From Gossypium raimondii (Eukaryota > Streptophyta > Magnoliopsida > Malvales > Malvaceae): 64,000 nucleotides of DNA. Position 1 is the first letter of the stretch. Every line of letters starts with the position of its first letter. Positions 26,302 to 54,280 of the stretch are shown in pieces. The position numbers and the translations under genes are program-made. The stretch lies in the NCBI RefSeq assembly GCF_025698545.1, contig NC_068566.1:27134444-27198443 (forward strand), given 5' to 3'. The notes beneath the pieces are model-generated. The model was not told where the DNA came from and made no database searches. It saw only the letters and a list, made by a program, of their open reading frames with translations.

Positions 26302-27541
26302 CTATCTTGAACTATGCGGGGAATTAACTGAGTCGAATCTATGCTTAGAAGCTGGAAGACTTCTAGCCTTCGACTTGTGCACTGCCAAATCAAAACTAAC
26401 CCGGGTCTGATTTTCACGAACACAGTGCCTTAACTTTTCAAAATCTGCATCCACGAGAGCTCCACGAGATACTTTAATGTCGCTCGACTCGATATTGATT
26501 TTACATCCTTTCAAGTCTAAAATACTTAAGGAGATGAGATTCTTTCGTAAATCAGGTACATACCTGACATCTGAGAGTGTCCTAATCGTCCCATCGTGTA
26601 TTCTAATTTTAACAGTACCAATACCGATTATCTTACTAGATGAATCGTTTCCCATGTGTACAACTCCACCTTCAACCGAACTATATGTGGAGAACCATTC
26701 TTTATTGGGACACATGTGGAAAGAACATCCTGAATCTAGGATCCACTCAGACGTAAACTTGGAGTTATCGCTCGTTGACACTAACAAGAAATCATCACCA
26801 CCTTTATCGACAAATTAGCACCAACTACATCTTCCTCGTTACTCTCAGCAGCTATTTTATTTCGCAGTTTATAATAATCTGTTTCGACGTGACCTAACTT
26901 TTTACAATAGCGACACATTTTGTCTCGTTTCTTTGATGCTACCAAAACGGAAGCTTGCCTATCTGTTTTGCTATTCAAACCAAACTCATTGTCGAGTTTG
27001 TCTCTACTCAACAAATGACCCTTCACATCTTCGAACGAGAGTTTGTCTCTACCATAAATCAATGTCTCCCTGAAAGACTTGTATGAAGAGGGTAAAGAGC
27101 ACAATAATAGCATAGTTTGATCTTCATCGTCAATATGAACCTCAACATTCTTTAAATCATTTAAAACAGTAATGAATTGACTGATGTGATCTCTAAGAAG
27201 CTCACCTTCGTTCATGCGAAACGTAAATAAACGTTATTTCAACATTAAACGGTTAGCCAAAGACTTAATCGCATAAAGAGTTTCTAACCTTTTCCATAAG
27301 GCGAATGAGATCTTCTCCATCAATACCTCCTGCAATACTATATTCGTGAGGCACAACTGAATTGCAGACAAGGCCTTTTCATCAAGCTCTTCCCATTCTG
27401 CTTGATTTAGATTTTCAGGCTTTTTCCCTGTAACAACCTTTTTCAAGCCGTTTTAAACGAGAATTGCTATCATCCAAACTTGCCACAGATTGAATTTGTC
27501 TCACCATCGAACTTATCAATTTCAATCCTTGTCGCTGCCAT
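26302..27541 (-). pseudogene. Copia gag and protease remnant in copy 1
   Basis: Broken frames on the minus strand. The order is gag N-terminus; a UBN2-type gag core (about 26781-27446, with KKVVTGKKPENLNQ, NEGELLRDHISQF and MLLLCSLPSSYKSFRETL); the zinc-knuckle remnant; then the protease part (about 26302-26787) with WILDSGCSFHM and DVRYVPDLRKNLISLS. Stops and shifts lie between the segments, so no single functional polyprotein is made. Confidence 0.8.
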
Positions 27542-28032: not shown

Positions 28033-30577
28033 ATGGATAATGATGATGCCAAGGCCCCCTAGATCTTACATATACTTAAATAGAAGACCAATTTTTCAAA
28101 TTTAGCACAAACAAAATGCACTTGGGCAACAAGGTCAACCAAAGAACAGTGTTTCAGAAAAGAGGCATATCACATTAACACAGCCATCTTTAGCTTTGTT
28201 CTATTGAAGATGGATCTTTTAAAACAATTTCCCTCTTTTTCACATTTATGAAGTTTTGGAGCTCGAAAGACTAATATTTCATAATGGTGACGGAGAGAGC
28301 ATTTTACCTTTAAAGCAACCTTTTTGAGTTTGTTCATTGCGCTGAATTGCTTCATTCTAGTTAAAACAGCAATATCAAGAGGCTTATCAGATGCATCACC
28401 GTCTTCACGCATCCATTGATGATCTGTGTGCAATTTGTAAATGAAGCTTCATTCTCTTTTAAAGAACTACCAAGAAACTTGAAGGAAAACTAAGATTCGA
28501 AATATGAATTTGGCAGGCAATTTGATAGTATTCAACTTTCAAGTCCAAGGCTTTTAACTTGCAAGAAACCATAATGAGTTCATAGGTCCTTGAAATTCAA
28601 TTAAAAAATTGACAGAAAAGGAAAAACTTACTTAAGACTTCAGATGCTGAAAGTCGTTCTTTAGGATCATCCCGTAGCATCTTCCTCACAAGATCTTTGG
28701 CACTGCTGGAAATGGAAGGCCATGGATCAGACGAGAAATAAATATTTCCACGAAGAATAGAATCAAAGATACTCTGCTCAATTTCTGCATGCAAAATCAA
28801 AAGCGGAGTTGTCAGATGTCTCACTCATCCACCACTGAGCAGAGCTCATTACCAATCAGCTCTTAATTAATATATTATATATACACTCAACTGGATATCA
28901 TCGAGATTTAAAACTACAAAGTTTCCAACACCTATAAAAGGAATATGGCTGTAGTACATTAAAATGAATATTTTATAATTAAGTACCTCCATAGAATAGT
29001 GGTACCCCACTAAGAAGAACGTAAAGAGTCACCCCAGCACTCCAAATATCAGCTTCAGGTCCATAGCGCCGACGCAATACTTCTGGAGCAACATAATAAG
29101 CACTTCCAACAAGGTCCTTAAAAACATATCCTGCATCAGTAGAGAAGCTTTCTAGTTGATACCCATCATTCGATAATAAGGTGAGGAACTACCTTACTCT
29201 GTTAGATGAACTGTGGCTAAAACATGAGAATTCAACATAAACTTTAAGTAGTAGCACTTTGTGCCTAGAAACATCCAAGATCAATAAAGATCTTCGATAT
29301 GAAGTTTCCATCATTTCAGTATTCCACAATACATAATGATTGACTATAGTTATAATTACTGTCCAGCACAATAAGTCTCTAGTCCCTATGCATCCTTACT
29401 CAATCGAGAGCCCACAAAATAGCTCACCTGGCTTGAAAAACACAGAGAGCCCGAAATCAGTAGCTTTCAATGGAGAATCCTCATCCTTATTCAAGAACAA
29501 GAAATTCTCAGGCTTCAAATCCCTATGCATTACCCCCATGGAATGACAATTATGCAGCATCATCACTATCTGCCTACACAAGTTAGCTGCTTTCCTATCT
29601 GAAAAATGACCTTTAGCTATAATCCGATTAAATAACTACCCTCCAGCACACAGTTCCATAATCAAATTTACTGATTGGTGATCCTCATAAGCCCCTTTCA
29701 GCTCCACAATATTCCTTTCAAAACCCATTTACTAAGACTTTTTTTTTTTAAGTTGCAAAATAAAAAATGAAAAGCTATAAAGTTTTTTATTAGGGGAAGA
29801 AACCTGTGGCCGGTGAGGTGGTACATAATTTGTACTTCTCGGCGGACATCTTCGATATCTTCACGGTTGATAAGCTTACGCTTGGTGATAGATTTACAAG
29901 CGAACTGCTGCTTGGTTTTTTTGTGAGTTACCAAGTAGGTAATACCAAACTGCCCACGGCCGAGCTCACCGCTGAAGACGTAAGTTGAACGGACGTCTTC
30001 CATGGGACGGCCGAGGACACGACCGACGGCAGGTGAAGGATGGTGGTGGTGGGTTGAAGATTGTTGAGGTCTTGGCGGTGGTGGGGCAGGTTGGATGTTG
30101 ATGCCACCATCGAGGAGACCAACGCCGGAGTCGGATAGTGGTTGGAACTGGTTACCAGTGGACGGAAGACCATTGCAGTTTCCCATAGTTTAAAAGAATA
30201 AATAACGGGAAACTCCGTTCCGTTTTCTAGGTCGAATGGGAGTCAAGGGAGTTGTTAAAAGGAAGACGGAAGGGACGAGACGTGTTTTATTTGTTTATCC
30301 GAAACTGAAACTGAAACTGAGCAGTCTTTTCAGGAAAAATTACAAAAACAATCACTTATGAATAACTTAAATTACATTTTGATGATCGATTTAGGATTTT
30401 ATTATGGTTTGTAGTTTCTCACATTTATTACATAACGTTCATTTTTTGCATATAGTTTGATGATATAGATTTAATGTAATAATTCAAGGCAATCCTATAT
30501 AGTTTCCCCTTAGCTTATAACCTCTTACTCTATCAATAAATGAGCTTTATTTGTATCTTCAATTTTAAAATTATTTT

Positions 30578-32186
30578 GGGTAAATTCACCAACAGTCACT
30601 TAACTTTAGGGTAGCTGACAAAACAATCACCTAGGTTTCATTTCAATCATTCAAATTTGGAAAAATAACAAAACAGTCTTTTTAACCATTTTCCGTTACA
30701 GACATAACAAAAAAGTAACATTGCATTTAACAGTGGGCTAGTTGTCGTTTGAACAGTCCTTTTTAACCCTAAACCCATTTAAGAGAACTGGGTAGTAGAA
30801 GAGGAAGAGAAAAAAAAGAAGAATAAGAGAAGAAATGGAGAAGAAGAAGAAGAAAAGAAGAAGAGAAGAAGAAGATGAGAAAATGGAAGGAGCTTCGTAC
30901 CAATGATTCCCAAGGGTCAAAATCCGGGAACTCAAAGACGACTACGCTTCCACGGTACCTACGCCTCCATGGCAAACGCCCTCCGCCGCACAAGTTGAGT
31001 GCATGTGCTAATGCACGTACGCAGTTTATGTATTGATTCTTAAGTTTTTATCTTCCGATGATAGAATGGACTTGATACCAAGGTTGAAAAGTCTAGAAAG
31101 CAGATGAAGGAAAGAAAAAACAGGGCTAAGAAAGTCAGAGGTGTAAAGAAGGTAATTGGGGTGTTTATTTTTTCAACTATTTTTTCTTGACTTTATTTTG
31201 TATATTATTTGTGACTTTGCCCACATTGCAGACGAAGGCTGGAGAGACTACCAAGAAGAAGTGAGATTCTCATAGACATGAACTAAGTTTCATGCAGCAA
31301 TACAATCAAGCCCCTACTTATTTACCTTCATTTATATTATTTTCCATTGAACTTCAAATGTGTAATGTTGAGTTCATTCTTCTTTTGAATATCCATTTGG
31401 ATTTTTGTATTATGGACCTATTTTACCTGTTTCTATAGAGATTTTAACTTGAAATGAATTTTTGGGGCTAGAAATTGAAATCTGAATCAGTACCATGTTA
31501 TCTCACCTAATGCTTTGAAATTTGCATTTACCAATTATTGGTAATTTCTTTTTCTTTGAATCCTATAGTCTATTCATGTTTGATTGGAACCACTGGCTTC
31601 CATGGTGCTTGAATGTTTGGTTTTTCAAGGATGCGGGTGGCTTAGGGTTGTTCAGCAGTTACTATTGTTGTTGTGGCTCCTGCTTTGTAGCCATTGTTCT
31701 GTTGTGGGTTTGACCCTTTGGCTTTTGTCAAGCAACAAACCATTTGGATTGAAAGAAAAAGACCCGAATTCAGGAGATGATAAAAGACAAGGTTGAGGGA
31801 GAAAGAAGATGAAGAGAAATGAGAAGAATAAGAAAAAAAAAGAAACATAAAAAAAAAGAGGTTGAGGGAGAAGAAGATAAAGAGAAAGATGAAAAGAAAA
31901 AGAAGAAAGACACAGAGAATGATGAATAATCTTTTCTTTTCTTTTTGACCCTTTGACTACTCGTCCAACGTGGCAAGTTAACTAGCCACATCAGCTAGTT
32001 AACTGGCCACGTCAGCTATCCCGTTAAGCTTGTGAAAGAAAATGTTAATGGGTGACTGATTTGTCACTTTTCAATAACGTTAGTGACTGTTTTGTTATTT
32101 TTTCAAAGTTGAGTGACTGAAATGAAACCCAAGTGGCTATTTTGTAAGCTACCCCAAAGTTGAGTGGTTGTTGGTGTAATTTACCC
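30578..32186. mobile_element. Long-TIR DNA element carrying a host gene fragment (Pack-type)
   Basis: The ends are imperfect terminal inverted repeats of roughly 150 bases. The left begins GGGTAAATTCACCAACAGTC and the complement of the right begins GGGTAAATTACACCAACAAC; both continue with matching TTTCATTTCA and AATAACAAAACAGTC blocks. No transposase is encoded. The interior holds an eS24 gene fragment (31065-31264), two purine-rich GAA tracts (about 30790-30880 and 31795-31920), and GC-richer segments. The long TIRs and captured exons fit a Pack-MULE, but no clear 9-base target duplication was found, so the superfamily is an inference. The left end is about 390 bases upstream of the CDPK start codon. 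Confidence 0.65.
31065..31264 (+). pseudogene. RPS24: Captured 3' fragment of ribosomal protein eS24 (RPS24) gene
   Basis: Two exons encode the last 39 residues of the 40S subunit protein eS24. Exon 31065-31151 starts [19 protein letters not shown] and ends RGVKK; exon 31232-31264 encodes TKAGETTKKK and a stop. The intervening 80 bases have GT/AG borders, and the sequence before 31065 ends in a pyrimidine-rich stretch plus AG, like an intron acceptor. The N-terminal two thirds of eS24 is missing, so this is a fragment with its intron kept, which points to DNA-level capture rather than retroposition. A 3' UTR-like stretch follows to about 31440. It lies within a TIR-bounded element. Confidence 0.8.
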
Positions 32187-32409
32187 ATTTGTTTTTTATA
32201 TTCGAGGTCTAATTATTTTTTAAATGTAAATTTTTAAAAAACTCTATTAAACACACAAACTACTTAAGTTAAACAGTAGTTTACAGAAATTCTATTCACT
32301 TATATATCTTGAATTCAAGTTTTTTTAAGTCAAGCCCTAATAGCTTACGAGTATTTTGTTTTTGTTTAATTACAAATTAAAAAAAATTCAAATATCCATT
32401 TTTTCCCTA

Positions 32410-32700
32410 TAGTAATAAAATAACAGATAAACTACATTTAAAATCACTCAATTATTAGTAAGCTTACACTTTGGTCACTCAATTTTAAAAAGTTACAAGT
32501 TGGTCACTAAACTACTTGAAAGTTACAAGTTGTTCATCAATTGTAATGGAAATCAAATATGGCCGTTAACTCACTATTCGTCATAGGGAAACTACACCCC
32601 AAGATCACTTAACTATTAGTAAGTTTACACTTTGGTCATTCAATTCAAAGATGTTACAAGTTGGTTATTGAACCATTCAAAAGTTTTAGGGTTTTAGGGA
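32410..32700. repeat. 'TTTGGTCACTCAA / GTTACAAGTTGGTCA' repeat, left arm
   Basis: Two partial tandem copies of a unit containing AGTAAG(C/T)TTACACTTTGGTCA and GTTACAAGTTGGT. The same motifs recur in the opposite orientation at 53930-54280 on the far side of the TE nest, as arms of one element or as two insertions. Confidence 0.45.
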
Positions 32701-40996: not shown

Positions 40997-41619
40997 GTGG
41001 AGATAATTATTAATCTTGGTAATCCGCAACTTCTTGCACATCCTGCTCCTCAGACTATTTATGACTATGCTAAGCCCACTCTGATTAGGGCTAAATCGAG
41101 TATTATTAGATTGACTATTGCTGCAAATAATTTTGAAATTAAGCTGAACATAATTCAGATGGTGCAACAATATGTTCAGTTTGGTGGGTCGCAAGATGAA
41201 GATCTGAATGTTTATTTAGCTAAATTTTTGGAGATCTATGATACATTTAATATCAATGGCGTTACTGATGATGTTATACGATTATGGTTGTTCCTATTCT
41301 ATTTGAGGAACAAGGCGAAACAATGGTTGAATTCACTTCCATGAGGTGAGACTTGGGCTCAGATGACTGAAAAATTTCTGTTGAAGATTTTCCACCAGCC
41401 AAAACAGCCAAGTTGAGGAATAATTTCTCTTTTTTTTCTCAATTTGAGCTTGAGACACTATGTAATGCACGGGAGAGAGTTAAGGATCTTTTGAAAAGGT
41501 GTCCTCATCATGGGTTACCTTTGTGGCTACAAATTGAAACTTTTTATAACAGTTTAAATCCCTCAGCTAGACAGATAATTGATGCAACAATTGGCGGAAC
41601 ACTGAATAATTATCAGTGA
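40997..41619 (+). pseudogene. Gypsy gag remnant
   Basis: Two overlapping frames together give a retrotransposon gag capsid region. Motifs: ANNFEIKLNIIQMVQQ, then FGGSQDEDLNVYLAKFLEI, KAKQWLNSLP, then after a stop and shift PAKTAKLRNN, RVKDLLKRCPHHGL and FYNSLNPSARQIIDA. These blocks are standard for plant Ty3/gypsy Athila/Tat gag. A TGA after LNSLP and a frameshift near 41400 break it. Confidence 0.8.
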
Positions 41620-53929: not shown

Positions 53930-54280
53930 ATACTATTTATTTAGTTTATCTAGTTAAGGGGTAAGGGTGTAAAGGTTGAGTGACCAAAGCGTAAACTTGT
54001 AAACTCAGTAATAGTTTAATGAACAATTTGTATCTTTTTGAAAATGCATGACTAAATTGTAAATTTACACATTTCACATCTAAAGTTCGTTACCAAGTTA
54101 AAAGGCCAGTGACCAGCTTGTAACCGTTTGAAATTGAGTGACCAAATTGTAAATTTACCCATCACACACCTGACATCCGTTACAAAGCTAATAGGCCTGT
54201 GACCAACTTGTAACTTTTGAATTTTCGAAGAGTTCAATGACTAACTTGTAACCTTTTGAAATTTAGCTAAAATATTTTTT
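53930..54280. repeat. 'TTGAGTGACCAAA / CCAACTTGTAAC' repeat, right arm
   Basis: Three partial tandem units in inverted orientation relative to 32410-32700, with motifs GAGTGACCAAATTGTAAATTTAC and GTGACCA(G/A)CTTGTAAC. Confidence 0.45.

Follow-up and report, generated by a model that had tools for sequence, protein, structure and literature searches.

The name Pack-MULE was reportedly coined in a 2004 paper. In the excerpted text of PMC3310237, Pack-MULEs typically have terminal inverted repeats (TIRs) of 100-500 bp and target-site duplications (TSDs) of 9-11 bp, and the tomato examples (PM-ZIBP) are 0.9-1.4 kb in size, with AT-rich TSDs and TIR identities of 87-95%. A TSD of 8-11 bp is given for MULEs in the portion of PMC6446971 that deals with them. 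Pack-MULEs are said to take up GC-rich DNA in the part of PMC8277862 drawn on here, where Pack-TIRs are proposed to acquire genes through gap filling or through template switching at stalled forks. Additionally, Pack-TYPE elements carrying DNA of several loci are already on record (PMC8903248, in its section 10).

The element described here has TIRs of 101 and 102 bp, a probable 9-bp TSD with two mismatches and fragments of host genes, and is non-autonomous. It is best explained as a Mutator-like TIR transposon of Pack-MULE type, non-autonomous and now decayed, that captured pieces of at least two unrelated host genes (probability about 0.85). The original prediction of a Pack-MULE-like capture is thus supported, the support consisting of anatomy and protein homology. 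No earlier report of this element was among the matches listed (titles and abstract openings).

Element extent and terminal inverted repeats

Within the window (the whole 64-kb stretch of DNA that was analysed), the element is 1609 bp long and occupies 30578-32186, the coordinates originally predicted, with both ends read directly in the sequence (GGGTAAATTCACC at the 30578 start and GGTGTAATTTACCC at the 32186 end). The arms and flanks are arranged as follows.

30569-30577, no strand: left copy of the probable TSD, 9 bp (7/9 against the right copy)
30578-30678, + strand: left TIR, well-conserved outer part (blastn, pairwise alignment)
30679-30796, + strand: inner left arm, aligning poorly with its right counterpart (gapped alignment)
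31951-32084, - strand: inner right arm, aligning poorly with its left counterpart (blastn, repeat search, gapped alignment)
31968-32012: 45-nt inverted repeat, 80%, within the inner right arm
32085-32186, - strand: right TIR, well-conserved outer part (blastn, pairwise alignment)
32187-32195, no strand: right copy of the probable TSD (7/9 against the left copy)

The outer arms (30578-30678 and 32085-32186) match in 87 of 102 alignment columns, with 14 mismatches, 12 of which are transitions, and a single gap (K2P divergence 0.159), and blastn pairs them at 85% over 101 bp (E 4e-27). The concern that the arms might not prove homologous on alignment was thereby laid to rest. A gapped alignment over a greater length of the arms (223 vs 236 bp) scored 156.6, against a shuffle maximum of 50.2 (n = 200), with much of that total contributed by the outer part. 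Because the similarity inward of ~101 bp is weak and seen only with gaps, the length of about 150 bases first given for the inverted repeats is a slight overstatement, while their homology stands (blastn, alignment and shuffles).

Neither arm has a further strong partner in the 64-kb window (blastn, E up to 0.01), where the partners recovered were the opposite arm and the short inverted repeat at 31968-32012 inside the right arm. In a laxer repeat search, a 28-nt part of the right arm (32100-32127) paired at 79% with 32464-32491, and a 28-nt direct match at 75% connects 30345-30372 with the left arm. When viral and prokaryote contigs were searched with a degenerate pattern of the right terminus, 0 matches came up, a result that says nothing on plants. 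Beside the element, positions 32440-32524 and 32601-32685 hold tandem 85-bp copies (81%) of a different TIR-like sequence, with inverted relatives at 53976-54266, ~21 kb away; together these are probably another TIR or MITE family.

Immediately outside both arms, the flanks AATTATTTT and ATTTGTTTT are alike at seven of nine bases, with two mismatches and in a T-rich context. Among 200,000 random local pairs, a fraction of 0.0045 matched over 9-11 bp with two or fewer mismatches, and the seven of nine bases found here lie within the TSD filter used in PMC3310237 (9-11 bp, ≤2 mismatches, as given in the excerpted text). The near-repeat is probably a degraded TSD, which is suggestive and not proof.

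Gene fragments in the interior

Between the arms, the element is composed of the following segments.

30797-30882, + strand: purine-rich (GA) tract just 5' of the NRPB3-type ATG, possibly a captured 5' leader
30883-30948, + strand: first 22 codons, counted from the ATG, of a putatively captured RNA polymerase subunit 3 gene of NRPB3 type (phmmer, tblastn)
30957-30989, + strand: TYASMANALRR, the subunit-3 sequence resumed beyond a deletion and in a different frame (joined-frame search)
30990-31064, + strand: junction region, not eS24-coding, which may include the 3' end of one eS24 intron (30995-31064 tested)
31065-31151, + strand: putatively captured eS24 exon, 29 intact codons (protein homology)
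31152-31231, + strand: last intron of eS24, 80 bp, GT..AG (borders intact)
31232-31264, + strand: putatively captured last exon of eS24, 10 codons and stop (protein homology)
31265-31781, + strand: interior after the eS24 stop, its start probably eS24 3' UTR and downstream DNA
31782-31926, + strand: further purine-rich tract, imperfectly duplicated within itself at 83% (blastn)

The eS24 fragment consists of the C-terminal 39 codons and the stop, divided between two exons that are both in phase 0. The uninterrupted codons and the intact GT/AG borders of the original prediction were confirmed. Aligned with plant eS24 chains, the 39-aa peptide covers residue 96 through the C-terminus (best E 4e-14). 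In single-exon tblastn searches of the window, the E-values were 9e-14 for the first exon and 0.14 for the last. The first 33 residues of the peptide are identical to 7qix_U and 8auv_H, and 9h3g_Ka differs at three of them. Pfam returned no match for the eS24 tail, which is very short. Retention of the 80-bp intron with its borders intact argues for capture at the DNA level, as had been proposed, and rules out a retroposed pseudogene (an intronless copy).

No eS24 coding signal was detected in the 70 bases 5' of 31065 (score 12, equalled or exceeded by 291 of 300 shuffles), with a reference stretch that had been checked against PDB chains. A coding extension in this direction is rejected on that result, and a by-eye match to YRLIR codons was abandoned because of it. 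As these 70 bases lack an eS24 coding signal and their last two letters are AG, the fragment would begin in an upstream intron or at a capture junction, just before residue 96. The window contains no other convincing copy of either eS24 or subunit 3; a second eS24 match (E 0.75) falls inside a copia fragment and is ascribed to chance. Copia-type gag/pol fragments occupy 26302-27215 on the minus strand.

The guess that other interior segments were captured as well is borne out for one segment, where the beginning of an RNA polymerase subunit 3 gene was recognized at 30883-30989, on the + strand like eS24. The frame from the ATG at 30883 reads MEGASYQ*FPRVKIRELKDDYA, in which codon 8 is a stop. 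This first frame matches residues 1-23 of 7eu0_C ('DNA-directed RNA polymerases II, IV and V subunit 3') in phmmer at E 4.7e-6 and two further chains at E 1.6e-5 and 3.5e-5, one of which is subunit 3B of polymerases IV and V; tblastn within the window gave E 3.8e-8 for the same piece. The continuation at 30957-30989 is weak alone (E 0.20, within 30939-30989), and the two frames joined by seven X match residues 1-39 at E 1.2e-10. A frameshift-tolerant alignment scored 105, against a shuffle maximum of 35 (n = 300). Pfam had no match to the first 42 residues of the piece. Judged from its sequence matches, the source gene is NRPB3 or a close paralogue, NRPB3 being what we take to be the gene name for the matched subunit. 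Frameshifted, shortened by a deletion and interrupted by a nonsense codon, the piece is dead as coding sequence. Its GC content is 55%, compared with 36% for the element, and was counted in favour of a Pack-MULE in view of the uptake of GC-rich DNA described for these elements in the part of PMC8277862 drawn on here. In a cotton NRPB3 paper (PMC12389714), a search by term showed no printed gene sequence.

Coding capacity and neighbourhood

The element has 11 ORFs of at least 40 aa, the longest of 74 aa, and none of at least 120 aa. A fusion ORF is ruled out by this limit and by the stop that follows seven codons after the subunit-3 ATG. No transposase of its own was found among the ORFs (≤74 aa) or by Pfam in six frames of ~31265-31783; ORFs of this length cannot encode a transposase.

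In a search of the interior at ~31265-31783 for a third captured gene, no Pfam family was found in six frames (stops as X) and no PDB match in parts of two of the six frames, both at E up to 1. Among five pieces scanned with Pfam, a single one matched DUF2773 (E 0.049) and Ubiquitin_IARS1 (E 0.11), each below its cut-off, and both matches were dismissed as chance. The purine-rich tract at 31782-31926 resembles the GA tract preceding the subunit-3 ATG (74%, direct orientation), and one of its frames reads VEGEEDKEKDEKKKKKDTENDE and then a stop, perhaps a further captured tail.

The element starts 392 bp from the ATG (30186, minus strand) of a kinase copy at 29500-30186, presumably CDPK-like, the first exon of which (29698-30186) matches Pfam Pkinase at E 1.4e-9. 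Its second exon contains an in-frame TAG (CAGG*LFNRII), so that the copy is probably a pseudogene, and for that reason no regulatory effect of the element on the kinase is claimed. The window, which has the look of plant nuclear DNA, also holds a plant snoRNA R71 (41410-41516, minus strand, E 6.7e-7), the C-terminus of a K+ transporter and an AAA ATPase.

Discussion

The TIRs, both gene fragments, the intron, the common orientation and the lesions are observed directly, and the presence of two unrelated gene fragments inside one TIR pair favours a capturing transposon over an old eS24 duplicate. From the sequence we infer the superfamily, the insertion by transposition and the order of capture. 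Genomic DNA of at least two unrelated host genes would have been copied between the TIRs of the element, namely the beginning of the subunit-3 gene together with the final two exons of eS24, the intron between them and the stop. The copying-in may have proceeded by gap filling or by template switching, between which one copy cannot tell. Too small for a whole transposase and lacking a long ORF, the element would move by transposase supplied in trans.

The same architecture could stem from a gene-capturing (Pack-TYPE) element that belongs to a different TIR superfamily (hAT, CACTA, PIF or Mariner), but this is unlikely. That reading draws some support from the nature of the MULE assignment, which comes from neither transposase nor TIR homology, from an 8-bp flank comparison in which six of eight bases agree, and from matches of TT and TTT one base outside the ends and of TA five bases inside. 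Conversely, no matching 2- or 3-bp duplication abuts the ends, the ends read GGGTAAATT and not CACTA, and TIRs of >100 bp together with a best duplication of 9 bp fit MULEs as these are described in the excerpts of PMC3310237 and PMC6446971.

Within the Pack-MULE reading, the eS24 tail is cleaner than the divergence of the TIRs would predict. Half the TIR divergence would predict ~6.1 amino-acid changes over the first 32 eS24 codons, an estimate which assumes that the TIRs were identical at insertion and that eS24 was captured earlier than the insertion; the number observed is 0 relative to 7qix_U, the protein of another species (P about 0.002). The subunit-3 piece, similar in length to the eS24 stretch, carries several lesions. 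A single old capture does not explain eS24, as the decay is less than the TIRs predict, and the mismatch hints at a later capture, at arms that were never identical or at constraint. The simplest reading is unequal arms or stepwise capture.

Constraint in its stronger form, in which the eS24 tail was selectively kept, for example as an exon of chimeric transcripts or as a source of small RNA, appears improbable. The lack of changes across the 32 codons and the intact intron borders would be consistent with selection, but a later capture would yield an equal pattern, and the expected figure depends on the assumption of identical TIRs and prior capture. Further, the parental sequence may differ from 7qix_U, the same stretch departing from 9h3g_Ka at three residues, and the subunit-3 start codon runs into its stop after seven codons. 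A combined history is slightly more doubtful again: subunit 3 would be the older capture, now broken, and eS24 the later one, with its exons, possibly including the native 3' end, spliced as a terminal exon into chimeric transcripts and selected. The contrast between a broken subunit-3 piece and a clean eS24 tail would make stepwise loading of the element testable against the parental genes.

Least probable are two separate TIR- or MITE-like insertions around an old pseudogene block, without capture; arms with 14 differences in 101 compared sites and with diverged inner parts, an imperfect TSD and the brief, weak matches between the arms and adjoining sequence (28 nt, 75-79%) would suit such an origin, but neither arm has another strong partner in 64 kb, the 9-bp near-repeat lies exactly outside both arms, and two unrelated gene ends within ~400 bp would be an extra coincidence. 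Separate insertions flanking an old eS24 duplicate, a doubt attached to the original prediction, were not found and are disfavoured by the second gene fragment, the probable TSD and the lack of a further strong partner for either arm in the window.

With pieces of two genes for essential machinery, the ribosome and RNA polymerase, in one orientation and with an intron preserved, this element illustrates compactly how a TIR transposon can capture genes in a plant. Compared with Pack-MULEs as described in the excerpted text of PMC3310237, it is alike in lacking a transposase, in its outer TIRs of ~100 bp, in a 9-bp TSD with two mismatches, in carrying a host fragment and in its small size, and unlike them in having two captured genes, in its decay and in the one copy seen in the 64-kb window. 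The multi-locus Pack-TYPE elements in the cited section of PMC8903248 are from rice, maize and Arabidopsis, whereas the element here is from another plant. Animal Pack-TIRs, in the portion of PMC8277862 devoted to them, similarly carry partial genes between TIRs, with animals as the hosts there and a plant here. Gene-capturing TIR transposons are a well-known kind, and this element is a good but ordinary example of how it copies and shuffles the genes of its host.
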